Below the pieces are notes generated by a model. It worked only from the letters and a program-made list of their open reading frames with translations. It did no database searches and had not been told where the DNA came from. From Elusimicrobia bacterium RIFOXYA2_FULL_39_19 (GTDB lineage: Bacteria > Elusimicrobiota > Endomicrobiia > CG1-02-37-114 > XYA2-FULL-39-19), in NCBI GenBank assembly GCA_001800285.1, contig MGVC01000055.1, forward strand, positions 1 to 55,570: a stretch of 55,570 nt of DNA. The letters run 5' to 3'. Positions 4,764 through 55,570 of this stretch are shown piece by piece; positions within the stretch are counted from its first letter, which is position 1; each line of letters begins with the position of its first letter. Made by a program: the position numbers and the translations under genes.

Positions 4764-4967
4764 ATTTTTTGTTAACAGATTGTTAATGAGGCCCTTAACC
4801 TGTTAGTAGATGGCGGGCAGGGCTAACAAAACTAATAACTTGGCGCTGTATTAACATCACAATTCACTTTAAGTCCGGCGTGATTATTGATTTTTTTGAG
4901 AGTATAACTTAAAAAATAGTAAGTTTTCCACAATATTCACAGAACTACTACTAAGGAGGCTATATAT
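4764..4967. promoter_or_regulatory. dnaA-dnaN intergenic region, possible second origin segment
   Basis: The gap holds several GTTAAC/TGTTAG words (4780-4850), an AT-rich stretch (4880-4925) and a near-consensus DnaA box TTTTCCACA at 4924-4932 followed by TATTCACAG. Many bacteria have bipartite origins flanking dnaA. A strong AAGGAGG ribosome binding site for dnaN lies at 4953-4959. Which side is the true oriC cannot be decided by eye. Confidence 0.45.
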
Positions 4968-6089
4968 ATGAATATTAAAGTAAACAAAGAAACACTATTA
5001 AGAGGGATTCAAATTGTTGAAACGGCAGTTTCAACAAAAACTACATTACCGGTATTATCAAATTTTTTAATTGAAGTAGTAAAGAGTAACGACGGTTCAG
5101 AAAATAGCCAGATAAAACTGGTTTCAACAGATCTGGAAATTGCGGTAAGTTGTTTTATAGAAGGTAAAGTAAAAACAGGCGGCGGTATTACTATTCCGGC
5201 AAAAAGGTTCGGCAGTATTTTAAGGGAACTGCCAAATCAGGAAATAGAAATTAAAACAGATGATAAACATCAGGTGGATATAAAATCAGGCAAATCACAT
5301 TTTGTTCTTTCCGGTACACCCAAAGAAGATTTTCCCGCACTTCCGGAATTTTTAGAAGAAAAAGCTATTACTATTGAAACAAAGCTTCTGAAAGAAATAA
5401 TCAAAAAAACTTCTTTTGCCATTTCAACAGATGAAACAAGATATGTGCTTACCGGTTTATATTTCATAATTGAACAGAATAACCTTAAAGCGGTTGCTAC
5501 AGATGGCCGGCGTTTAGCGTATATTTCAAGAAACGGGATTTCCAGCAAAATTACCGCAAAAGCTATTATCCCTAACAAAGCTATTAATGAATTAACGCGC
5601 CTGTTTTCCATAGATGAAGATGAAAATGTTAAAATCAGCATGACAGACAACCAGGCGTCTTTTAAAATGAAAGATATCACGCTTATTTCCAGGCTGGTTG
5701 ACGGCGAGTTCCCGAATTATGAACAGGTTATACCGAAAAAACACCAGCATAAAATACCCATTGATGTAAAAACCCTTTTAAGTTCAACCAAACAGATATC
5801 TCTTATAACCCAGGAAAAAGGCGGAGCAGTAAAATTCTCTTTCAATAAAAATGTACTGCGAATTTCCGCTCAGGTACAGGGGCTCGGCAGCGGCGAAGTG
5901 GATATGGATATGGTTTACAACGGGCCGAACATTGATATAGCGTTTAACCCGACTTATGTAATAGACATACTTAGAAATATCGGAGAAGAAAAAGTGGACC
6001 TGGAACTAAGCGGCCCTATTGATGCCTGTATACTTAAAAGCTCCGGCGATGATGATTATATCTGTGTAGTTATGCCGATGAGAGTCTAA
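4968..6089 (+). CDS. dnaN: DNA polymerase III beta subunit (sliding clamp)
   Basis: The 373-aa product starts MNIKVNKETLLRGIQIVETA and ends with the family's C-terminal peptide VVMPMRV, which closes the third clamp domain. The VATDGRRLAYI segment near residue 176 is the conserved hydrophobic-cleft region. The dimeric ring tethers polymerase III and other factors to DNA. Length is typical. It follows dnaA in the usual order, with an AAGGAGG site eight bases before the ATG. Confidence 0.98.
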   Translation: MNIKVNKETLLRGIQIVETAVSTKTTLPVLSNFLIEVVKSNDGSENSQIKLVSTDLEIAVSCFIEGKVKTGGGITIPAKRFGSILRELPNQEIEIKTDDKHQVDIKSGKSHFVLSGTPKEDFPALPEFLEEKAITIETKLLKEIIKKTSFAISTDETRYVLTGLYFIIEQNNLKAVATDGRRLAYISRNGISSKITAKAIIPNKAINELTRLFSIDEDENVKISMTDNQASFKMKDITLISRLVDGEFPNYEQVIPKKHQHKIPIDVKTLLSSTKQISLITQEKGGAVKFSFNKNVLRISAQVQGLGSGEVDMDMVYNGPNIDIAFNPTYVIDILRNIGEEKVDLELSGPIDACILKSSGDDDYICVVMPMRV

Positions 6090-6095
6090 AAAACA

Positions 6096-6162
6096 GTGAT
6101 TAGTCGTTACGTGATTAGCAAAATCCTTAACAAACCACCTAATCACTTAACCACTTAATCAC
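6096..6162. repeat. Degenerate-word hairpin between dnaN and the DUF721 gene
   Basis: Left arm 6096-6118 (GTGATTAG...GTGATTAG) is complementary with few mismatches to right arm 6139-6162 (CTAATCACTTAACCACTTAATCAC read in pieces). Each arm is built of the word GTGATTAG/GTGGTTAA repeated two or three times. The same vocabulary occurs at 8979-9048, 10066-10140 and 19195-19233. Confidence 0.75.
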
Positions 6163-32816: not shown

Positions 32817-32939
32817 TTTTTACCGGTAAAAATATTGACCAGTGGTTTGTTTTACCCTCTGCCGGTTTATCCGTTGGGGAGGGATAAAGAAATTTGCAGG
32901 GGCATTTATATGTTTAATTAGGATTGATGTTTAAAAATT

Positions 32940-33011
32940 TGGCTGCGGGGGGGGTCGAACCCTCGGCGCGCGGCTTATGAAACCGCTGCTCTACCACTGA
33001 GCTACGCAGCC
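32940..33011 (-). tRNA. tRNA-Met (CAT), elongator type
   Basis: Reading the minus strand, acceptor arms GGCTGCG/CGCAGCC and discriminator A enclose a D arm (GCTC/GAGC), an anticodon arm GCGGT-TTCATAA-GCCGC with anticodon CAT, and a T arm with TTCGACC. GGCTxCGTAGCTCAG resembles elongator tRNA-Met; lysidine-modified tRNA-Ile (CAT) cannot be excluded. One A-C mismatch in the T stem and a run of C residues are unusual. CCA is not encoded. The integrase stop lies 6 bp from its 5' end. Confidence 0.9.
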
Positions 33012-33017
33012 ATATAT

Positions 33018-34130
33018 TCAATGTTTGTCGTCAGTAAACTGAGTTATTTCTGCTTCTTTTTTAGTACCGCTATTTTCGTCTTGTGTCCAAAAATTGCCTA
33101 TAGCATTTTCTTTTTCTATTTTGTTCATTCTGGCGCTTAAGATTTCTACTGCCTGTCTTTTAAAGTTCGGCGCCAGGTGACTGTAACGCATGGTCATCTC
33201 AATTGATTCGTGGCCCACGAGTTCTTTCACGGTATAAATGTCAATTCCTGACATTACCAGATTTGAACAGAAAGTATGTCTAAGATCGTGAAATCTAAAG
33301 TCTTGTATATTTGCCCGCTTTAACGCGGTCTTAAATGTTCTGTCTATTCTTTTGAATCTGTTTCCCTGTTCATCGCAGAACACGTACTCACCATTAGGAT
33401 AACGCTCTATTGCCTGCAGTGTCCTTAATAACGCGCTGTTGACCATTATTTCGCGTTTAATGTTTGTTTTTGAAGTACTTGCAGGGATATGGATAGTAGC
33501 CGTTCTAAAATCAATATCACTCCACTTTAATGAAAGAACCTCTTCTTTTCTGCATCCCGTATTTAGGGCAAATATAATTGCATTCCGTAAGTACCCGGAA
33601 CAGTTGGATAAAAGCCTTTGTGTCTCTTCCTGGGTTAAGTACCGTATTTTTCCCGGGCTTTCTTTGTAAAGCTTAACCTTGTCCATTGGGTTTGAATCTA
33701 CCATCTCCCAATCTTTCGCCCTATTGAAGATGTTTCGCAGACAGCCGGTTTCACGGTTGATTGTTGCAAAGCTGACCATATCCGCTTGTCTGGCCATTTT
33801 GTATCGTTCTATTTCTTGTGGTGTGATTCTGCTAATGTAAACATCGCCAAAATATGCCTTCAGGTGCTTTATTGAAAGCAGGTCCCGTTCATATGACCGT
33901 TTTCTTTTATTTGGTTTTGAGTAATTGGTTGAGAACGAATCACACAGTTCATAGAACTTGAGTTTTTTATTCTTAGGTGTTTCAAAGAACTTTTCTTCAT
34001 GAGCCTGAACCTTTCTTTTTGCCCAGGCCAATTCAGCAAATCTGCGGTTAGGGCCAACCTTTTCGCGGACCCTTAAACCGTTAACGTAATAGTCCAAATA
34101 GTAGTTGTCGTTCTTAAAAATTATTGACAT
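33018..34130 (-). CDS. Tyrosine recombinase / integrase
   Basis: The 370-aa product has an N-terminal Arm-type region, a SAM-like core-binding domain (ERDLLSIKHLKAYFGD) and a catalytic domain with the full set: Arg in TGCRKEEVLSL, Lys in STSKTNIKRE, HxxR in HDLRHTF, His in VGHESIEMTMRYSH and the Tyr nucleophile in MRYSH. It probably integrates and excises the element on its right, using the tRNA-Met as a landmark. Its C-terminal tail (after about 330) is polar and non-conserved. It sits immediately next to the tRNA 5' end. Confidence 0.95.
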   Translation of the reverse strand: MSIIFKNDNYYLDYYVNGLRVREKVGPNRRFAELAWAKRKVQAHEEKFFETPKNKKLKFYELCDSFSTNYSKPNKRKRSYERDLLSIKHLKAYFGDVYISRITPQEIERYKMARQADMVSFATINRETGCLRNIFNRAKDWEMVDSNPMDKVKLYKESPGKIRYLTQEETQRLLSNCSGYLRNAIIFALNTGCRKEEVLSLKWSDIDFRTATIHIPASTSKTNIKREIMVNSALLRTLQAIERYPNGEYVFCDEQGNRFKRIDRTFKTALKRANIQDFRFHDLRHTFCSNLVMSGIDIYTVKELVGHESIEMTMRYSHLAPNFKRQAVEILSARMNKIEKENAIGNFWTQDENSGTKKEAEITQFTDDKH

Positions 34131-34170: not shown

Positions 34171-34362
34171 CTATACGGTAATTGCAGCTACTTTTTTCTT
34201 TTCAATCCAGTTGTTAATGTCTTCTTTTGAAAATTTTGTTAATCTGCCGATTTTCAAATATGGTATCCTCTTTTGGCAGACCCAGCAGTAGACCGTGTTA
34301 ACGCTTAGTCCGAGCATTTCCGCCACCTCTTGAACCGTTAATAGTTTTTCATTGTCATTCAT
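34171..34362 (-). CDS. Excisionase-like helix-turn-helix protein
   Basis: The 63-aa product contains a MerR/HTH_17-type fold: LLTVQEVAEMLGLSVNTVYCWV then RIPYLKIGRLTKFSKEDI. Such proteins next to an integrase usually act as excisionases or directionality factors. The ATG is only seven bases from the 20-bp box at 34369-34388, so the transcript may have almost no leader if that box is a promoter. Confidence 0.82.
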   Translation of the reverse strand: MNDNEKLLTVQEVAEMLGLSVNTVYCWVCQKRIPYLKIGRLTKFSKEDINNWIEKKKVAAITV

Positions 34363-34398: not shown

Positions 34399-34423
34399 AA
34401 AAGTCCATTCGTGTGGACTTTTT
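34399..34423 (-). terminator. Rho-independent terminator at the end of the 209-aa gene
   Basis: The stem AAAAGTCCA/TGGACTTTT with a short TTCG-containing loop overlaps the stop codon at 34422 and is T-flanked on both strands. It lies directly upstream of box A, and a similar AAGTCC stem sits next to box B at 46859-46884. Confidence 0.7.
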
Positions 34424-35051
34424 ATTCGTTATTTGTTTCGGTTTCTTTATTTTCTTTGTCTATTTCTTCAAGGCCTGCTTTTAGCTCATTTTTTACAAAC
34501 CTGTTGCCCTGACCGTCCATTTCCAAAACAACCCGGTTCCGGAGTTCCGTAGGTAGACTGCCTATTGCTTCTACGAAACTCCTTATTTCTTGAGGTATGT
34601 TTACTTCCATTGACACCGGGTTGAACGGCACCTGGGCCGCCGGCTTGTTTCCGCCCTCTATTTCCCATTCGTATTGCATTACGCGTATCATGTCCAGGTA
34701 TGTAAATTTTGGCAGCCTGCCTTCTTTTTCCAACTGCTGAAAAGACCTTAATAGCGATGACAGCTGCATGCTCAGTAGCTTGCGCTGCATTTCAATTACA
34801 ATTGACAGCCTGTCTACAATTTTAGCGTCATGTTTTTGGGATGCTGTCTTTTCTAGGCGTAATAGGCGGGCTTGCCACTCATGTTTTGCTGCCATGTGTT
34901 CAATGGTACTGATACTTATCTTTTTGTTGTATTTTTTCTGTAGTTGTGCTGTAAGGCCAGCATAGGTGCGGTTAACGCCCATTCCGACGTATTCTTTGAA
35001 GTATTCTTCACTACGGCTTCTTTGTTTGGAACCAATGGGTACTTTTGGCAT
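34422..35051 (-). CDS. Hypothetical helix-turn-helix protein, terminase-small-subunit-like N-terminus
   Basis: The 209-aa product begins with a basic segment and a predicted HTH (NRTYAGLTAQLQKKYNKK then ISISTIEHMAAKHEWQARL), the arrangement seen in some phage terminase small subunits and related MGE proteins that sense or bind DNA ends. The rest is helical with an acidic tail (GLEEIDKENKETETN). There is no large terminase subunit nearby, so packaging is not supported. A GGAGG site precedes the ATG. Confidence 0.55.
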   Translation of the reverse strand: MPKVPIGSKQRSRSEEYFKEYVGMGVNRTYAGLTAQLQKKYNKKISISTIEHMAAKHEWQARLLRLEKTASQKHDAKIVDRLSIVIEMQRKLLSMQLSSLLRSFQQLEKEGRLPKFTYLDMIRVMQYEWEIEGGNKPAAQVPFNPVSMEVNIPQEIRSFVEAIGSLPTELRNRVVLEMDGQGNRFVKNELKAGLEEIDKENKETETNNE

Positions 35052-35069: not shown

Positions 35070-36002
35070 TTAAATTAAGTCGTGTATAGTGGTTTCAGTT
35101 TTAATCAGACTTCCATCTTCTGCTTCTTCTAAATAATGAAGACATTTTGAACAAAACCGCCCGTTTTCTCTAAGGATAATGCCGCCTTTACAACAAGGCG
35201 ATTTGGGCGAATTATCTTCTTTTTTCGGTGCGTTATGAGTTATTTCATCTTCCGGGTGAGAATATTTTTCCTGGCATGCTTTTCTTAGCCATGCTGGAAT
35301 GTTTTTAACGCCTTTTGTTAAACCTTCGGCCTGATAACACACACTTTCGTAACCGAAGTCTTCAATAAGTGGGTCGATAGAAGAAAAGGGGATATCTTTG
35401 TTCGTTCTTTGTTTAATTGTTTCACAGATATTATGTATGTTGTTATTCTTATTCTGGTTCTTATTATTAGAGACTTCGGAAAGAGCTTCGTTATTATTGA
35501 CGGTAAATGACTTCGGAAAGGCAGGTTCCACTTCGGACATATTTTCATTTTCTTGGGTATTTTCAACACTCACTTCGGAAACATCAGTGGTTTTACTGTC
35601 GACAGCAACTTCGGACAATTTCGTTGGTTTTTGGCTGTTTTCAGATGTAACATCGGAAAGTTTGTTGGGAATGTTTATATAAGTTCCATTTGAGAGCGGG
35701 TAGTTATTTGTGCTTATTTTTGATAAATTCTTTTGGCCCTGCTTAATATCATAGTGTATATAGCCTTTTGCTTTTAGTCTTTCCATAATATGTCTAACCC
35801 AGTCCGGGTTTTTCCGTATTTTCTGGCCTATAGATGAATAGTTTTCAACTAGTTCACCGTTATAGGGATTTGTGGTAGTCATGAGCCAATTCAATAGGGC
35901 GTATTCATCAAATGTGATTTTGCCTGTTAAAACAGCATCACTATAAATTCGATACCAGCGTAAAAAATTGTTTTTGTCTAAGTCCATATTTTTCATTCTC
36001 AT
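35070..36002 (-). CDS. Putative replication initiator (winged helix, lambda-O-like layout)
   Basis: The 310-aa product has an N-terminal winged-helix domain (about 10-110; NPDWVRHIMERLKAKGYIHYD is the recognition region), a long low-complexity linker (about 113-190), a C-terminal helical part (about 192-250) and a zinc-ribbon-like end with CC at 270-271 and CSKC at 284-287. This resembles phage replisome organisers and DnaD-like initiators; the exact family is not certain. The linker DNA carries six ACTTCGGAMA repeats. No good ribosome binding site precedes the first Met; starts at M4 or M6 are possible. Confidence 0.6.
   Translation of the reverse strand: MRMKNMDLDKNNFLRWYRIYSDAVLTGKITFDEYALLNWLMTTTNPYNGELVENYSSIGQKIRKNPDWVRHIMERLKAKGYIHYDIKQGQKNLSKISTNNYPLSNGTYINIPNKLSDVTSENSQKPTKLSEVAVDSKTTDVSEVSVENTQENENMSEVEPAFPKSFTVNNNEALSEVSNNKNQNKNNNIHNICETIKQRTNKDIPFSSIDPLIEDFGYESVCYQAEGLTKGVKNIPAWLRKACQEKYSHPEDEITHNAPKKEDNSPKSPCCKGGIILRENGRFCSKCLHYLEEAEDGSLIKTETTIHDLI
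35473..35660 (-). repeat. Six iteron-like repeats inside the initiator gene, possible internal origin
   Basis: Plus-strand ACTTCGGAMA copies start at 35473, 35510, 35530, 35572 and 35608, with one variant ACATCGGAAA at 35650. Spacings are 37, 20, 42, 36 and 42 bp. Five are read as (L/V/M)S(E/D)V, but the 35510 copy is read in another frame as FPKS. An AT-rich tract (about 35425-35472) lies on the downstream side. Confidence 0.6.
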
Positions 36003-44397: not shown

Positions 44398-45183
44398 TTA
44401 CCAAACAATCTGATTCCAGTTAGTTTGTTTAATTGATATTTGTGCTTGACCAATTATCTTGTTTTTTTCTACATTCGTCAAAAGGTCAGAAAGGATATTC
44501 GCGGTATTTGCAGGATCGATGACTTGTGAATACAACGGGTTACCCGCAGTTTTGGCTAATTCTTTTAGAACATGCAAAACATTATCTCCGAGGTTGTTTA
44601 CGTCTTTTGATTTATTCAACAGAATATTATTGATAAGCAAATATTCCAAATAGATTGATGAAAAATCAAGATGATTTAATTCTCTCCAAATTTTCAGCAA
44701 TTTTATTTCATTTATTCTGCCTGATTGAGAAATGTCGTTGATATGCCTCTGGATATTTGTTTGCTTCCACGTATCAAGTTTTGAGACATACAACCAATGA
44801 TCGTTCGTATTTCCTGTTTGTTTTCTTGCTGGGGTTACATCTACCTCTAGTCCATTCAAATTTATTCTTATGGAAACATTTTGCTTGCTAACTGATGAAT
44901 ATTTGCTATTTAACTGTGTATACAAAGAGTCATAAATGCTTTTTAGCCCGCCACTGTTTTCATTACAGTTACTTTTCAAAGAAACTAAATAATCTACATC
45001 AGATGCAAGGGATATCGCGGTGCCTTTTGCTAGGGAGCCAGAAATTAAAAGCTCTACATAGCAAGTTGCTGCCCAATCTTTCAGGGTCGTTTCAAGTTGT
45101 GAAAGTGCAGCAAGATAGCCTAACAAATTTCTCGCACTATATTTTTGTAATATCTGATTCAGGTACATGTCAATTTCGGTCAT
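44398..45183 (-). CDS. CD-NTase-like nucleotidyltransferase (CBASS cyclase candidate)
   Basis: The 261-aa product has the polymerase-beta-like active site: GS at 49-50 in LLISGSLAKGT, metal-binding Asp62 and Asp64 in ASDVDYLV, and the third Asp115 in LEVDVTPAR. After WLYVSKLDTWKQTN a helical C-terminal domain (IKLLKIWRELN) matches the OAS/CD-NTase layout. Such enzymes make cyclic oligonucleotides on phage infection and activate a partner effector. The start overlaps the upstream membrane gene by 14 bases, so the pair is coupled. Product and trigger cannot be read from the sequence. Confidence 0.75.
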   Translation of the reverse strand: MTEIDMYLNQILQKYSARNLLGYLAALSQLETTLKDWAATCYVELLISGSLAKGTAISLASDVDYLVSLKSNCNENSGGLKSIYDSLYTQLNSKYSSVSKQNVSIRINLNGLEVDVTPARKQTGNTNDHWLYVSKLDTWKQTNIQRHINDISQSGRINEIKLLKIWRELNHLDFSSIYLEYLLINNILLNKSKDVNNLGDNVLHVLKELAKTAGNPLYSQVIDPANTANILSDLLTNVEKNKIIGQAQISIKQTNWNQIVW

Positions 45184-45700
45184 AGCTTGTAGTGATTAGT
45201 GAGGTCAAAATATCATTTAAAAGGCGACCCCGGAAATTTACAACAACAGTATTTGCACGATTTGCAATCTCGCTCATTTTATCTTGCGGAATACTTGCGG
45301 GTTTTGCATAAATTACTATTGCAGTTTGATGATTTTTCCTTGCAGAAAAAACCTGCTCTATTTTGTCTCCAAACGTTTCCCAGTCTACCAGAAATATGGT
45401 TTCTTCCTTCGACTTGTCAATATTGTCCGAGTTTATATGCAAAATATTATTCTTTTTGAAGATATTTGAATCAACAAGGGAGCTTTTTAGGCTTTCAAAT
45501 ATTTCAAAACTTCCAAAAATAACTACCTTTCTTTGCCAGAGGGCAATCCCTAAACGAAAAACAATAGGTGTAATACCAAAAGCCCAACAAAGCAATCTGT
45601 AAACAAAAGCAAGAAACGCAAGGGTTACAGTTATGCCACCAACTATTATGAATAGTGGATGATTATAAAAATTTGAGATTTGACGAAGAATGTTTTCCAT
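45170..45700 (-). CDS. Membrane-anchored Rossmann-like protein, possible CBASS effector
   Basis: The 176-aa product has one or two N-terminal membrane helices (HPLFIIVGGITVTLAFLAFV, about 14-33, then a weaker segment) and a soluble alternating beta/alpha domain: KVVIFGSF, TIFLVDWETF, TAIVIYAKP and TVVVNFRGRLLNDILTSL. The order suggests a flavodoxin-like or TIR/REC-like fold. It overlaps the CD-NTase gene by 14 bases, the usual arrangement for a CBASS effector. I cannot name the family, and there is no ribosome binding site directly upstream. Confidence 0.6.
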   Translation of the reverse strand: MENILRQISNFYNHPLFIIVGGITVTLAFLAFVYRLLCWAFGITPIVFRLGIALWQRKVVIFGSFEIFESLKSSLVDSNIFKKNNILHINSDNIDKSKEETIFLVDWETFGDKIEQVFSARKNHQTAIVIYAKPASIPQDKMSEIANRANTVVVNFRGRLLNDILTSLITTSYDRN

Positions 45701-48825: not shown

Positions 48826-49764
48826 TTAAAACTTTGCGGAAAAACTCACCCTATGCGTATTCCCCAGCACACCATAAGGGACAAATGAATAATCGGTCTG
48901 GGTGCCGAAGAGCTTGACTCCAAATCCCGCCCCTAAACCAGAGACATCATTGGCTGAACTGATGACTGGATTGGTTGATAAATATCCGGCTCTTAAGGCA
49001 AGGGTGTTTATCGGCAGGAATTCAGTCCCTATGCTTACGATTGTTTGGTTTTCATATACCTGTTGTTTTAAATCCAGCGCAATAGTAACCCCGCCAATGT
49101 TGTATCCTAAACCTGTTGCTACTGTTAACGGCAGGTTATAGCCTTCACTGATGAATTTCATTTGCGGGCCAAGGTTCTGAATTGAAAGGCCGGCAGTAAA
49201 CGGCAAAGCGGGGAAATGGTAAAGCGCGCCTAAGTCCACAGCTACCCCGGTTGCCTGTTCTGATTCTATCTTCTGTTGGATTATTTTAAGGTTTGCTCCC
49301 AGCCCGATGAATCTTTTATTGCTTAACAACAGGTTCTTACTGAAACTAAATGTTACCGCCATATCACTTGCGCCAAAAGAAGCTGTTTGCTGGCGGTTTT
49401 CGTCCCTGCCTTCCATTTCACCCTGGGATAGAACGATTACGCTGCCGCCAAATACCCCTGACTTTAACGGGCTGGCAAAGCCTATATAATCCAGGTTTGA
49501 ATCTACTACCCACTGGCTGTGCATAGCAGATATTTGTCTCTGCGTCAGCTGTGAAAGCCCACCCGGGTTCCAGTTAATGGCAGTTACATCATTTGCAATG
49601 GCTGTAAATGCGCTACCAAGCCCTACTGGCCTGGCCCCAATCCCGATTTTAAGGAAGCTTGCTCCGGTGTTTTCTGAGAACGAGCAGGTAGTAAATAGTA
49701 AGCATGTAAATAGGGAAACAATAACTTTTCTTCCACCACAGGCGGATTTCATTTTGCTCAACAT
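48826..49764 (-). CDS. PorV/PorQ-like outer-membrane protein
   Basis: About 312 aa from the ATG at 49764, which follows GGAGGAAAAAA; a longer frame to 49860 has no site. The signal peptide KVIVSLFTCLLFTTCSFS is followed by ASFLKIGIGARPVGLGSAFTA and NDVTAINWNPGGLSQL, the signature of the UPF0164/PorV family of FadL-like barrels. The C-terminus HRVSFSAKF ends in Phe, as barrels do. In Bacteroidota, PorV shuttles cargo of the type IX system. Here it lies 77 bp after a cargo-like gene, which supports that role. Confidence 0.85.
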   Translation of the reverse strand: MLSKMKSACGGRKVIVSLFTCLLFTTCSFSENTGASFLKIGIGARPVGLGSAFTAIANDVTAINWNPGGLSQLTQRQISAMHSQWVVDSNLDYIGFASPLKSGVFGGSVIVLSQGEMEGRDENRQQTASFGASDMAVTFSFSKNLLLSNKRFIGLGANLKIIQQKIESEQATGVAVDLGALYHFPALPFTAGLSIQNLGPQMKFISEGYNLPLTVATGLGYNIGGVTIALDLKQQVYENQTIVSIGTEFLPINTLALRAGYLSTNPVISSANDVSGLGAGFGVKLFGTQTDYSFVPYGVLGNTHRVSFSAKF

Positions 49765-49841
49765 AGTTTTTTCCTCCGTAATTAAAAACGAGATTCTTTC
49801 TTTTCTAAAATAAATAAACGGTGTCAGGATAACGCCCAGCG

Positions 49842-52800
49842 TTATTTGATGACCGCGCACTTCTTTATAACTTTTATCGGATTCTCTCCGGACTTTTGCG
49901 CATCAATGTAATAAATGTATACGCCACTTGCTATCCCGGAAATATCCCACTGGTATTCATAAGCATAAATTTTGTTATCAATAATTTTCCAGTCACTGCC
50001 CGCTACCTGCTGGCTGTGTATTAGTTCCGCTGCAATGTTATATATTTTTATTTCTATACTATCCGCAATACCGCAAGCTATGTGTATTGTCGGCTTATAT
50101 CCGTTCTTTGCGGGGTTAGGATACGCATATGCTTCATTTAGTCTGAATGTCGGGTCAGGGCCAAAGGATTTGCGGACATTCATTATCCCTCGTTGTTCAT
50201 CGGTTGATTTATAAATGTAAAACTCATCAAGGGTACCTTTTGCTACCCCGTAACTGCTTTCAGGGTATTTGTTTCCTATATTGAATTTACTGAATGTTTG
50301 CGCCTGCCAGCTGCTGGCATTGGTTACGGTCCCTGTTTTCTTTTCACCGTTAATGTATATTTCCGCTTTTTGAGCTGTTCTATCCCATGCAAACTTTACC
50401 TGGTACCAGGTATTTGCTTGTGCGCTCCATCCGCTGGTTTCTACCCTTACATTGTTTGCGCTGTCTACAAGGAAACCCATCGGGTAACTGGGGTTGCCGC
50501 TTACATACCCATAGAAAGTGGAATTTGTCGTACAACTGCCAAAGAATAGGTATGACCAGCTTCCGGGGCTTCCTGTAAAGTTTGGCCTATACCAGAACTC
50601 TATGGATCCTCTGTCAGGATTGATGTTCCCTATCGGGTCTATTCCAAAATACGCTCTGTTGGTGTTCCATCCGGCAGGGATGTTTATTGCACCACCCGCT
50701 GTCCCGGCTATAGCCGCTATTGGCCCGTTATCAGGATTCTTATAAGTTATAAACCCGGCTCCTGTGTTAGGTGCGGCATCAATTGGATTTTCCATATCCC
50801 AGTAAAAGAAATTTTCGTTTAAGTTCTGTGCAGGGGTTTGTGCCTGGTTGGACATAGTCGATATGTTTAGTTCACTGTTTTCTGTCCAAAGGCTGAAATA
50901 ATAAGTAACACCGCGGGCTAATTTGCTAAGCGTTATCTTTTGGGTTGTGCCGGCGGTTACATTACTTGTTGAAATAATTATCTGTGCTTTTGATACCTGC
51001 CAGTTTATGGTGTCCTGTGGATTGCTATTCCACGTTGAGTATTCTATGTAATATTTTCCTGTTAATATTCCCTGGGTATCATTATTTCCGGATGAAGTCC
51101 AGGTTAAGTCTATTTGTCCTGAGTTAGTCCCTGCTGTTGCCTGTAAATCATTAACAGTTGCAGGCGCTATCGGACAATAACTTGTAAACTCATCCATTGC
51201 GCCTTTTACCATTCCATAAGAGCTTTCAGGGATTTTGTTTCCTATGCTAAATCCGCTTATGTTTGTAGGTTGCCAGTAATTTACATTATTGACTATACCG
51301 GAACGTTTAATACCGTCTATCCAGATTTCAGCTTTCTGGTTTTGTCTGTCCCAAACAAGTTTGAAGTAATACCACCTGTCTTTTTGTGCCAGCCAGGTAT
51401 AAGAGGGGACTTGGGTGTATACATTGTATGAGCTGTCAACATAAAACATTAACGGGTCGCCTGAATTGCCGCTCTTCATAAAATAAAATCCTGAGTTGGC
51501 CGGGCCGCTGCTATAAAAGAAATACATGCCTACGCCTGTAGAACCTGTATAATCAGGCTTGTACCAGAAATCAATTACACCTTTATCAGGATTGATGTTT
51601 GAGGGGTCTATGCTGTAATAGGCACGGTTAGTGTTCCAGCCGGACTGAAGCTGTATTGCGTTTCCAATACCGCTTACACCGGCGGTGCTTACAATCGGGC
51701 CGTTATCAGGATTAGTTTTGGCGATATTCCCTGCTCCTATATTCGGAACTGTTGCGTTTACATTGTCCATGTCCCAATAGAAATACTGCGGTTCGTTTAA
51801 ATTTTGGCTGACCGCAGATACAACATTTGAAATTCCTGAAACATTTGAACTTTCATCTATCGTCCATAATGCAAAGTAATATGTTGCGCCCCTTATAAGA
51901 CGGTTAACTGAATATTTCTGTGCCTGCCCGGGGGTAATGTTGCCGGTTGAAATATTAACCTGTGCTTTTCCTACGTTCCATGCAATTTCAGAAAATGTTG
52001 AATACTGGATGTAGAAATTTCCACCGAGTATTCTTTGACTACCGTCGTTCCCGGGTGCATCCCAGTTCAATACCACTTCCCGGGAGTTTGTTCCTGTGTC
52101 GGCGACAAGGGTGTTTACAGCACTTGGAGCAATGACATCGGATTCTACCGTTACTGTACCGGTGACTATAGTTTCATTTCCTGCAAAATCCTTAACAAAT
52201 AGTTGGTAAAAATAATTGCCCGGCTGAACCAGATTATTTGAACTGTTTTTACCGTTCCAGGAAAGTGTAACCAAACCGACAGCTGCGTTAATGGAAGGGT
52301 AATATCGCACATCATTCCAGTTGCTATCGTATAAATACATTCTTACTCTTGTTTGTTCCGAGGTATAAAAAGAGAATGTTACCGAATCATTTATATTGTC
52401 ATTATTCGGCGAAAAGGTAGACGGCGATACAATAAAATCAGTTATTTCAGGTGCTACCGTGTCTCGCGTTACATATTTTGGGTTTGATATATCGCTTTTT
52501 ATTGGTTGATTATTGAACCATCTGATAGTCCGTGCCATTATTGGATTACTTCCTTCTACAATATCAATAAAAGCGTTAAACAGGCCAGTTACAGCGTCAG
52601 CTGTTACTGTTTTAATTACCGCGCCATCGTTATATATTTCTACGGTTGCCCCAGGTTCGGATTGTCCTGTAACTTTGACAGAAGCACCATTGGTTATAGA
52701 ATTAACCAAAGAAAAAGTTGGGACAGGCACTTGCGGTATAATCAAATAATAAGAAAATGAAGTGACTGGGAACCAGATTTTATAATATGGCCTGCCGTCA

Positions 52801-55570
52801 GCGCTGAAGACAGGGTCAACGGTTTTGTTGATTACCCTTACATCCAGAGGCTCTAAACTTCCGTCGTCTTTTACATCATATACAGTCATTTTACCCATGA
52901 TGTCAAGAATACTTCCATAAGCTTGTAGTTCTTCAGGTAGTAAATTTACCGTCAACATAGCAGGAGTAACGGTAGAAATCTGTAATCCTTTTGGTTGGAA
53001 ATCGTATATAGGCCCTATTGGGATAGGCATTCCTTCATTCTGCCTGTAATCTATTTCGCTATACTTTTTGGGTGTTATTGTGATATTCACATCATGGTCA
53101 ACGGACCCCGGAGGAAAATCCAAATAGGCTTTGTTGTTTGGAGCTGTTACATATGTATTTGTGCTTGCAGATTGCGAAACGTATTTACCAATAACACAAT
53201 AACCTAAATGCCATTTCAGTAGGCCGTTTTGTAAGACTGTTAATTTTAATAAATAGTCACCGTTTAAACCCGTAACATCCCAAAAACCAAGCACATTGTT
53301 AACTGGGGGTTGGGTAGATGAAGTAATAAACCGCCATTCATTCTTGCCGTCATCTTTGCAGTAGGTCAGGTTATAACTATTCAGCCCCTGCGCTTGCGAA
53401 GGAACAGTTCCTCTTACATCTATAAATCTTTTTCCGGGATAACCGGAAGAAGTCATTTTTACGATAAAAAAATCATTTCTGTCGTCAGTATACGAGGGAT
53501 GTATGCTGTCAACTGTTAGGGAATCATTTGTTGTACCGTCCGGGTAATAAAGTTTTACGGTCCAGCTGTCAACATCAACAAAAAGATTGTCTACAAACCT
53601 GTTGTTTTGTACATCGTAGAAAAAAGTGTTTTTGATAGAATTGTTTACAACTACTGGATATTCAAGATAGAATAATATTGGTGTTGTGGAACCAATTATA
53701 AAATAGGATGGATCGTTATCGTGGCCATTGAAATAGTTTACAGAATTTACAATTTCACCATTGCTTGAGGATAACAAGGAGTCTTCACTTGAGAACCATT
53801 TCTGTTTTATCTGGGTTGTTGCTTGAAGTTTGGGGATACCGTTAGCATATACTACACGAGCAGTTACTGACGGATTGCTCACTGAAAATAGTTTATATTT
53901 AGTTGGATCTACCGATACATTTGCCGGAATTGTAAATATTGTTGAAATATCATTACTTAAATAGGGTGTAGGCACAGTGCAATTTGCATAACTTGTGCTT
54001 GGATATCTTGCTGTTGTACCCCAGTTTCTTGAAGAATTCGCACTGGCTGAGATTTGAGTGTTGGAATAGATTTGGGTGGTTACTTTGAAATTGTTGTCAG
54101 TAACCGTATAAGTAATTCCACTTACGGTTCCGCCAAGGGTTGGTGTTGGCGCTGCGTTAAAAGAAATCAATGCGCTTCCACTGCTTTGGCTTATGCTATT
54201 TGTTCCGCTGACGGTTTTTGTTACAGTTTGAGTTCCGCTTTTAATAACATTCCCAGATACTGACCAATTAAAAACAAAGTCACCTGGGACGTGAACCCAA
54301 TCAGAGAGATGGCCAAGTTCTGTAAAATCATGCAGATCCTTATAAATCCATATCCTTGCTTTACAACTAGTAGATGTTTTATCATAAACTTCAAAACCGC
54401 CTCCAACATAACCGAAGCCATTAGTTTCATAAAAATTTGTTGGATAATTGATCGTAGGTTCAGGAATACCATTAAATGTTTCCCCATAGTTAATATTTAC
54501 TGTCACCCATTCTTTAACAAAAGCCCAATAAAAATGCATTCCGTATAAATAATCACCGTGTTTTTCAAATACGAATACTTTCCATTTAGTTGTACCACCA
54601 TTTTCATATTCATTTCCGTCGTATTTTCCACCATCTGTTCCTGATACACTACCTGATTTTGTGGTTATAGCAGAATCAACATAACTATAAGTCTCAGTCC
54701 CAATACCTGTTACAGTCCAGGTGAAATTCTCATAAGGATATTCTGTGCCGGATGCCTGCAGAACTGTATAAAAATCTTGCGGCGGGTAATGAATGCCATT
54801 TGCTGTTGCCTCCCATTTAAAAAGCGCGAGTCCCTGCGTTGTGGTTGTATTAACAGGTTCTGTTATCTCAGCTATAACATTTGAATTATAAACACCCACT
54901 GTAATTGCTATCCAATTATCATCTTTTGTTTGTGGTAAATCTGTTGATGTTGCGTTTAAATGAAAATTATAGGTGCCGGTCAGGTTGTTTCTCCAAAGGA
55001 AAGTATTTTTACCGGTAGAAACCATGGAATCAGATATTACTGTATAGGTTTGACCGTCATACGTATTTTCGGCTGTTATGCAAACTGTTGCGCTCTTTGA
55101 TAGTTCAAAGGAAATTGTTGCATAATCAGAAGTATCGGAAGGGGATATAAACACTTTGTTTGATGTGAAAGATACAATATTTAACGGTATTCCATATGTT
55201 TTTGCTACAGAGATTTGCCTGCTATCGGTGCTTATACCGATACCGCCGCGATCCCTGGCTGTCAATAAAATAGTATAATTTCCGCTTTCTAAATTCCAGA
55301 AATTTTGGCTATCTTCCCAAACAAACGAGGAAGTTGCTGCGCCGGAAACATTCTGTTGCCTGAAGTAAACCACTGGGCCGGCACTACTGGCCCAAAGCCG
55401 GTAAATTTCCAGGCTTACATCAGAAACCTGATATTGGGACTGGTTTACTGTAAAGTTTATTGTCAGATTGGCCGTCCCGGTGTGTAAATTAGCATGCATA
55501 TTTGACCCTATATTTGCATTGAATTTTGACCCTATCCGAAGTTGTTCTTTTTTACCACATTTAAACGCAT
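49842..55570 (-). CDS. Giant secreted multidomain protein with type IX-like C-terminal sorting domain (5' end not in window)
   Basis: At least 1885 aa; the first Met is at 55499 but the frame stays open to the window edge, and the N-terminus lacks a signal peptide and starts mid-domain. Domains in order: several Ig-like repeats, a FlgD-type Ig domain (SPSTFSPNNDNINDSV near 1020), two tandem units of fibronectin type III plus LamG-like (about 1120-1440 and 1440-1770, each with a YWDM(D/E)N start), and a C-terminal domain beginning AYPNPAKNG (about 1793) and ending in a short basic strand. This is a T9SS CTD layout. A hairpin ATAACGC/GCGTTAT overlaps the stop. Likely a surface or secreted adhesin or binding protein. 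Confidence 0.85.
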   Translation of the reverse strand, partial: AFKCGKKEQLRIGSKFNANIGSNMHANLHTGTANLTINFTVNQSQYQVSDVSLEIYRLWASSAGPVVYFRQQNVSGAATSSFVWEDSQNFWNLESGNYTILLTARDRGGIGISTDSRQISVAKTYGIPLNIVSFTSNKVFISPSDTSDYATISFELSKSATVCITAENTYDGQTYTVISDSMVSTGKNTFLWRNNLTGTYNFHLNATSTDLPQTKDDNWIAITVGVYNSNVIAEITEPVNTTTTQGLALFKWEATANGIHYPPQDFYTVLQASGTEYPYENFTWTVTGIGTETYSYVDSAITTKSGSVSGTDGGKYDGNEYENGGTTKWKVFVFEKHGDYLYGMHFYWAFVKEWVTVNINYGETFNGIPEPTINYPTNFYETNGFGYVGGGFEVYDKTSTSCKARIWIYKDLHDFTELGHLSDWVHVPGDFVFNWSVSGNVIKSGTQTVTKTVSGTNSISQSSGSALISFNAAPTPTLGGTVSGITYTVTDNNFKVTTQIYSNTQISASANSSRNWGTTARYPSTSYANCTVPTPYLSNDISTIFTIPANVSVDPTKYKLFSVSNPSVTARVVYANGIPKLQATTQIKQKWFSSEDSLLSSSNGEIVNSVNYFNGHDNDPSYFIIGSTTPILFYLEYPVVVNNSIKNTFFYDVQNNRFVDNLFVDVDSWTVKLYYPDGTTNDSLTVDSIHPSYTDDRNDFFIVKMTSSGYPGKRFIDVRGTVPSQAQGLNSYNLTYCKDDGKNEWRFITSSTQPPVNNVLGFWDVTGLNGDYLLKLTVLQNGLLKWHLGYCVIGKYVSQSASTNTYVTAPNNKAYLDFPPGSVDHDVNITITPKKYSEIDYRQNEGMPIPIGPIYDFQPKGLQISTVTPAMLTVNLLPEELQAYGSILDIMGKMTVYDVKDDGSLEPLDVRVINKTVDPVFSADGRPYYKIWFPVTSFSYYLIIPQVPVPTFSLVNSITNGASVKVTGQSEPGATVEIYNDGAVIKTVTADAVTGLFNAFIDIVEGSNPIMARTIRWFNNQPIKSDISNPKYVTRDTVAPEITDFIVSPSTFSPNNDNINDSVTFSFYTSEQTRVRMYLYDSNWNDVRYYPSINAAVGLVTLSWNGKNSSNNLVQPGNYFYQLFVKDFAGNETIVTGTVTVESDVIAPSAVNTLVADTGTNSREVVLNWDAPGNDGSQRILGGNFYIQYSTFSEIAWNVGKAQVNISTGNITPGQAQKYSVNRLIRGATYYFALWTIDESSNVSGISNVVSAVSQNLNEPQYFYWDMDNVNATVPNIGAGNIAKTNPDNGPIVSTAGVSGIGNAIQLQSGWNTNRAYYSIDPSNINPDKGVIDFWYKPDYTGSTGVGMYFFYSSGPANSGFYFMKSGNSGDPLMFYVDSSYNVYTQVPSYTWLAQKDRWYYFKLVWDRQNQKAEIWIDGIKRSGIVNNVNYWQPTNISGFSIGNKIPESSYGMVKGAMDEFTSYCPIAPATVNDLQATAGTNSGQIDLTWTSSGNNDTQGILTGKYYIEYSTWNSNPQDTINWQVSKAQIIISTSNVTAGTTQKITLSKLARGVTYYFSLWTENSELNISTMSNQAQTPAQNLNENFFYWDMENPIDAAPNTGAGFITYKNPDNGPIAAIAGTAGGAINIPAGWNTNRAYFGIDPIGNINPDRGSIEFWYRPNFTGSPGSWSYLFFGSCTTNSTFYGYVSGNPSYPMGFLVDSANNVRVETSGWSAQANTWYQVKFAWDRTAQKAEIYINGEKKTGTVTNASSWQAQTFSKFNIGNKYPESSYGVAKGTLDEFYIYKSTDEQRGIMNVRKSFGPDPTFRLNEAYAYPNPAKNGYKPTIHIACGIADSIEIKIYNIAAELIHSQQVAGSDWKIIDNKIYAYEYQWDISGIASGVYIYYIDAQKSGENPIKVIKKCAVIK
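55497..55540. repeat. TTTGACCCTAT direct repeat pair at the window edge
   Basis: TTTGACCCTAT occurs at 55501-55511 and 55525-55535, 24 bp apart, exactly where the large gene loses its expected N-terminus. Multiple short direct repeats are typical of IS21-family ends, but this comparison is from memory and no transposase is visible. Confidence 0.35.

Follow-up and report, generated by a model that had tools for sequence, protein, structure and literature searches.

A candidate replication origin inside the putative initiator gene of a tRNA-integrated defence island from an Elusimicrobia bacterium

Intragenic origins and related mobile elements

Phage lambda carries its replication origin inside the O gene (PMC5043065, PMC7466680). 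In the Staphylococcus plasmid pSK41, the N-terminal approximately 120 amino acids of RepA mediate binding, and four Rep boxes are located centrally in the rep gene. The linker of pSK41 RepA (amino acids 121-199) is encoded by ori DNA, and its C-terminal domain is host-specific (PMC5703833). The iterons of the RepA_N class are mostly direct repeats, and in PLE the origin is placed in a non-coding region and the integrase is a serine recombinase (PMC7145576).

In this study we analysed a contig stretch of 55,570 nucleotides from Elusimicrobia bacterium RIFOXYA2_FULL_39_19 (hereafter termed “the window”, meaning this whole stretch), which harbours an integrated element with anti-phage cargo and, on the minus strand (35070-36002), a gene coding for a putative replication initiator of 310 amino acids. 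We put the probability at roughly 75% that this gene is the replication initiator of the element and that the DNA coding for its linker is the element's origin. Judged by analogy, the locus is probably an iteron origin of the intragenic type, with a mode of action like that of lambda ori or pSK41 ori, but it belongs to neither family. A tRNA-integrated defence island with an origin inside its initiator gene would be a fresh example of a known design, an interpretation that is well supported but unproven.

A previous reading of the same DNA from its letters (the “sequence-only reading”) had proposed a lambda-O-type layout. The layout as such holds up against the lambda control, in a second copy of the element and under codon shuffling (see below): lambda O/ori lambda and the window gene alike combine an N-terminal DNA-binding domain, mixed-frame iterons in the linker DNA and an AT-rich tract directly 3' of these. 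The repeat type differs, however, and the lambda O family (Phage_rep_O) in Pfam does not match the window initiator up to E = 1. Lambda iterons are inverted repeats of approximately 18-19 bp, which bind O dimers and lie about 20-24 bp apart, whereas the window array consists of 10-bp direct words at distances of 20-42 bp, and not of lambda-type iterons of some 18-19 bp with dyad symmetry. Moreover, no P-like partner was recognised beside the window initiator. Since the window repeats are short direct words rather than inverted repeats as in lambda, the closest anatomy is that of pSK41 RepA, where ori resides inside rep. The two proteins comprise 319 (pSK41 RepA) and 310 amino acids (window), and both possess repeats in their linker-coding DNA. 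Yet the window protein does not match RepA_N (PF06970) up to E = 1, its C-terminal domain is unrelated as far as compared, and pSK41 is a plasmid, whereas the window initiator is located on an integrative element.

The window element also resembles satellites such as PLE, which employs a RepA_N initiator, and the PICIs, in that it harbours an integrase, an initiator of its own and anti-phage cargo, with no structural phage genes recognised. In addition, a terminase-small-subunit-like gene is present in the window, as in some PICIs, and is the one hint of a possible dependence on a helper phage for induction or packaging, as expected of a phage satellite or PICI. In contrast to PLE, the candidate origin of the window element is intragenic, and its integrase is a tyrosine recombinase.

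The integrated element and its second copy

The left boundary of the element falls inside an intact tRNA-Met (CAT) gene (32939-33012, minus strand), which constitutes attL. The sequence shared with a second copy of the element, found on another contig of the same genome (C7), starts at position 32972 within the anticodon arm of the tRNA-Met, and the core reads CGGTTTCATAAGCC. Between the tRNA-Met and the initiator gene lie three genes, all on the minus strand. These code for a tyrosine recombinase (integrase; 33018-34130; Pfam PF00589, 1.2e-36; phrog_1, 7e-81) with a 94% identical copy in C7, an excisionase-like HTH_17 protein (34171-34362; TIGR01764, 3e-15; PF12728, 9e-19), and a terminase-small-subunit-like protein (34422-35051; phrog_6299, 7e-8), at the same place of which C7 carries another phrog_6299 member. 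The presence of an integrase and an excisionase at a tRNA att site is the feature by which integrative-excisable elements are recognised; integrase, excisionase and tRNA attL together point to an excisable element, which, as the sequence-only reading had suggested, would replicate after excision. The right end of the element was not found within the window contig, because the contig stops at 55570; the block common to the window and C7 extends to 55486. Among 199 genomes of the phylum, closely related integrases (E <= 1e-90) are present in its own genome only. A more distant integrase is encoded next to a tRNA-Val on contig C61 of the data set (L022, 7770-11035), along with an excisionase-like gene and a different protein of 276 amino acids in the initiator position.

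The initiator of the C7 copy is 86% identical at the protein level, and the DNA identity in this region amounts to 90%. C7 retains only the 5' 41 nt of the tRNA-Met (L009, 4252-4293), followed by unrelated single-copy DNA, and such a half tRNA is compatible with a secondary site or with elements arrayed in tandem. In the latter case, the elements of the window and C7 may lie one behind the other at a single tRNA and have been split between contigs; this reading predicts another half-site at the far end, and none was found there.

Amid conserved core blocks, the cargo of the two copies differs. The window carries a CBASS-type cyclase and a one-TM effector, arranged as a two-gene system (44398-45700, minus strand; oligonucleotide cyclase: PADLOC 1.2e-83, SMODS 6.8e-10; one-TM effector: PADLOC 6.3e-82). 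The cargo of C7 includes two Thoeris-like ThsB/TIR proteins that flank a PDC-M50A-like gene (L009, 18236-19716, minus strand), and the C7 element also has a ParB-methyltransferase fusion. A giant secreted LamG/FlgD-like ORF (48826-55499 in the window; L010, 826-9990; domain names read from the sequence) adjoins a PorV-like gene. This ORF comprises 1885 amino acids in the window, where it is cut near the contig end, and 3054 amino acids in C7, at a DNA identity of 85-87%, and may be element cargo, since it is common to both element copies. Close to the contig end (55490-55570), a repeated TTTGACCCTAT resembles the end of an insertion sequence truncating the giant ORF.

The putative initiator and the repeats in its linker-coding DNA

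The putative initiator is composed of an N-terminal HTH-like domain (approximately amino acids 10-113), a linker (approximately amino acids 114-180) and a C-terminal domain with Cys pairs. The repeat array encodes about amino acids 114-178, i.e., Rep-box-like words are positioned between the N- and C-terminal domains. A weak match to phrog_345, “replication initiation O-like” (1.4e-4 for the window protein, 5.4e-6 for the C7 copy), spans the N-terminal domain and the linker, and the match to PHROG 8102, “replication initiation protein”, is weaker still. Up to E = 1, no family in Pfam and NCBIfam matches the window initiator. The single-sequence AF2 models score poorly, with a pLDDT of 46 overall and of 60 in the N-terminal part. 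At this low confidence, they predict helices at amino acids 31-42, 57-64 and 66-79 in a helix-turn-helix-like arrangement and no secondary structure for amino acids 121-180, the segment to which most of the array corresponds. Further on, they show a C-terminal part made of helices and, after it, a region rich in strands that contains the Cys pairs. A fold search started from the model of the N-terminal part returned meaningless matches, and a sequence search of solved structures with the initiator yielded nothing useful. The earlier description of the protein as winged-helix initiator-like is backed by the predicted helices of this low-confidence model and by the weak PHROG O-like match.

No homologues of the initiator, close or distant, were found in the genome contigs, viral contigs, phages and plasmids searched, and among 341 genomes of the phylum no homologue was detected beyond the second copy in its own genome. 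A marginal match in a relative (E = 0.008) was dropped as a candidate homologue, as it represents a RelA/SpoT-like protein. Among the PHROG 345 matches in 32 genomes of the phylum, none of those examined carried the window word, and no comparable array was seen.

With regard to function, the protein matches replication initiation families in PHROG and no others, in accordance with the earlier expectation that it would not align to a non-replication family. This result also bears on a reading of the gene as coding for an HTH protein for packaging recognition, partition or excision control, in which case the repeats would be a pac- or parS-like site. The terminase-small-subunit-like gene (phrog_6299) adjoining the initiator gene and the ParB-methyltransferase fusion nearby in the C7 element are in line with such a role. 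However, given functional matches exclusively to replication initiation families and a linker position of the array that recurs in phage initiators, we consider this role extremely unlikely.

Within the linker of the initiator-like gene, the sequence-only reading had described six ACTTCGGAMA-type repeats, one of them a variant, and all six were located. Five exact copies of ACTTCGGAMA start at 35473, 35510, 35530, 35572 and 35608 on the plus strand, inside the minus-strand gene, and the sixth is the variant ACATCGGAAA at 35650, likewise on the plus strand. The whole array (35473-35659) has a single orientation, and in the coding direction the repeat reads T(T/G)TCCGA(A/T)GT. In coding order, the iterons are ACATCGGAAA (iteron 1, 35650-35659), ACTTCGGACA (iteron 2, 35608-35617), ACTTCGGAAA (iteron 3, 35572-35581), ACTTCGGACA (iteron 4, 35530-35539), ACTTCGGAAA (iteron 5, 35510-35519) and ACTTCGGAAA (iteron 6, 35473-35482), the last of which adjoins the AT-rich tract. 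Iteron 1 is read as SDV, iterons 2, 3, 4 and 6 are read as SEV, and iteron 5 lies in a different codon phase and is read as FPKS. The codon-phase reading thus agrees with the previous assignment of five S(E/D)V copies (L/V/M-S-(E/D)-V) and one FPKS copy. All six words are unchanged in C7.

The repeats start 37, 20, 42, 36 and 42 nt from one another, a spacing that is only partially in helical phase. Most of them contain a short TTC-N-GAA dyad; otherwise they are 10-bp direct words. The cores of the window element (15.9 kb) and of the second element each contain ACTTCGGA five times, in every case within the array. The 3.09-Mb genome holds 18 exact ACTTCGGAMA matches, 10 of them in these two arrays. 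Across the whole window, repeats with at most one mismatch number 13, compared to 6.9 by chance, a merely modest excess, because single variant copies turn up anywhere. Clustering, and not the whole-window count, is the signal.

Synonymous codon shuffling, which held the protein and the codon usage fixed, was evaluated for arrays with at most one mismatch per copy within 236 bp. Six copies arose in none of 1000 shuffles, the maximum being five copies (in 4 of 1000), and five TCCGAAGT were obtained in none of 20,000. The serine codon TCC, which makes up 15% of the serine codons across the genes of the window, is used for 5 of the 25 serines in the initiator gene, and all five reside at the S(E/D)V repeat positions (chance 1.9e-5). 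These findings are pertinent to the possibility that the repeats are a protein feature, namely an L-S-E-V peptide in a flexible linker, which was expanded by duplication and has no role as DNA. Five of the six copies indeed share a frame, and C7 strictly retains the linker peptide (amino acids 138-170 identical). Yet the out-of-frame copy at 35510 has a 12-mer in common with another copy, TCC encodes all five S(E/D)V serines and is used nowhere else in the gene, and the spacers between the repeats share no evident sequence, and therefore the array does not stem from recent tandem duplication. A mere protein feature is thus unlikely.

The comparison with C7 reveals no substitution in the 60 positions of the six words, as opposed to 95 in 864 positions elsewhere in the gene (rest of the linker 17/216, N-terminal part 36/293, C-terminal part 42/355). 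The hypergeometric chance of unchanged repeats is 0.001 for the whole gene and 0.013 for the linker, but rises to P = 0.16 if the third codon positions of the linker alone are considered. As the sole homologue in the data searched is about 90% identical in DNA, conservation of DNA and of peptide are not fully separable by this comparison. The codon evidence and the frame shift lend good support to a DNA-level constraint on the repeats, and the single homologue lends moderate support. The mixed frames, the excess over the shuffles and the lack of changes in C7, the one homologue, corroborate the previous claim that conservation acts on the DNA rather than on a protein motif. As to the comparison with homologous initiators of other genomes, which had been recommended at the same time, no homologue from another genome was found in the searches described above; all six words are kept in C7.

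The candidate unwinding tract and comparable viral initiators

According to nearest-neighbour stability, the gene is least stable over the 50 bp at 35427-35476, which abut iteron 6 and represent the candidate unwinding tract. An AT-rich tract had been placed directly downstream of the array in the coding direction by the sequence-only reading, and it is indeed found there, albeit mostly explained by the peptide. This stretch ranks among the least stable 2.5% of the element core, and its plain AT content of 75% is unremarkable. In the C7 copy, the least stable 50 bp begin 6 nt past the array at the same place as in the window. Computed with the same script, the offset between the array end and the least stable tract is -4 in the window, +6 in C7 and +10 in the viral initiator L068 (see below). 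In lambda O (J02459), the positive control, the iterons occupy gene positions 348-433, and the least stable 50 bp start at 437. An offset within 10 nt was observed for 9 of 372 background ORFs, the window and C7 genes being two of the nine. In 54% of the synonymous shuffles the least stable stretch stays where it is, since the Asn/Lys-rich peptide NNKNQNKNNN forces AT-rich codons. The tract is largely peptide-driven, and therefore it is supportive only and no independent proof.

A nearly as unstable stretch lies upstream of the initiator gene at about 36012, and DnaA boxes within one mismatch are absent from the vicinity of the gene. The repeats might alternatively be regulatory sites for autoregulation, copy-number control or incompatibility, with the origin located elsewhere, e.g., in that unstable stretch of 50 bp, which closely precedes the gene. 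The iterons of known replicons often have an additional role in copy-number control, which is compatible with this notion. However, the word is absent from the upstream region and from the rest of the element, an operator 340-530 nt into a coding region would be unusual, and, like the lambda iterons, the array lies directly beside the least stable tract of its gene. Purely regulatory repeats are hence improbable, and we favour an origin in the linker-coding DNA.

For such an origin, we propose that the six ACTTCGGAMA direct repeats serve as binding sites for the N-terminal HTH domain. The complex assembled there would melt the AT-rich DNA on the 3' side of the array, as seen in the coding direction (35427-35476), and the C-terminal domain would recruit a host helicase or primase. 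The excised tRNA-Met island would then replicate, along with its defence genes, as a circle. Since the origin would be inside the gene, initiator and origin would be inherited as one unit, and the two would make up a small replicon amenable to testing. Sequence alone sufficed to pinpoint where this mobile defence island probably has its origin and its initiator, the latter without a match to any curated family.

Viral and genome contigs were scanned for the triple word TCCGAAGT, i.e., three spaced copies. The scan mostly retrieved ordinary tandem repeats and two notable initiators, L068 (phrog_678 O-like, 9.6e-6, plus DnaA_N) and L075 (phrog_6643, 7e-8), both on viral contigs and both with copies of ACTTCGGA arrayed in mixed frames along the linker. 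When the word was reversed as a control, the scan returned 40 matches, and inspection by eye revealed no HTH initiator with a linker array among them. The window protein is not homologous to L068 or L075, as judged by searches that included a profile comparison with the L075 family. Among the L075 homologues (L248-L284; 37 loci, PHROG 6643/21732), a mixed-frame linker array is common, the words vary, and the least stable 50 bp often follow directly after the array. A common word code for the window, L068 and L075 was considered and rejected: the shared word is probably a coincidence, since the word changes freely within the L075 family. It is likewise very unlikely that the initiator founds an unassigned family of intragenic-origin replicons on tRNA-integrated defence islands of this poorly studied phylum, with ACTTCGGAA, common to it, L068 and L075, as a recurring recognition code of HTH initiators.

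Mixed-frame linker arrays are nevertheless found in the window, L248-L284 and L068, without sequence homology of the viral proteins to the window protein, and a mixed-frame linker array with an adjoining unstable tract is a recurrent design. This signature, mixed-frame linker iterons with the least stable tract right after them, is passed by lambda and can serve in the search for intragenic origins of phages and islands whose initiators are unrecognised. The L248-L284 family provides good material for studying the co-evolution of HTH initiators and origins. The L068 protein (4958-6142, minus strand) possesses an HTH_36-like N-terminus, linker repeats of the palindromic ACTTCGGAAATTCCGAACT type and a DnaA N-terminal domain at its C-terminus.
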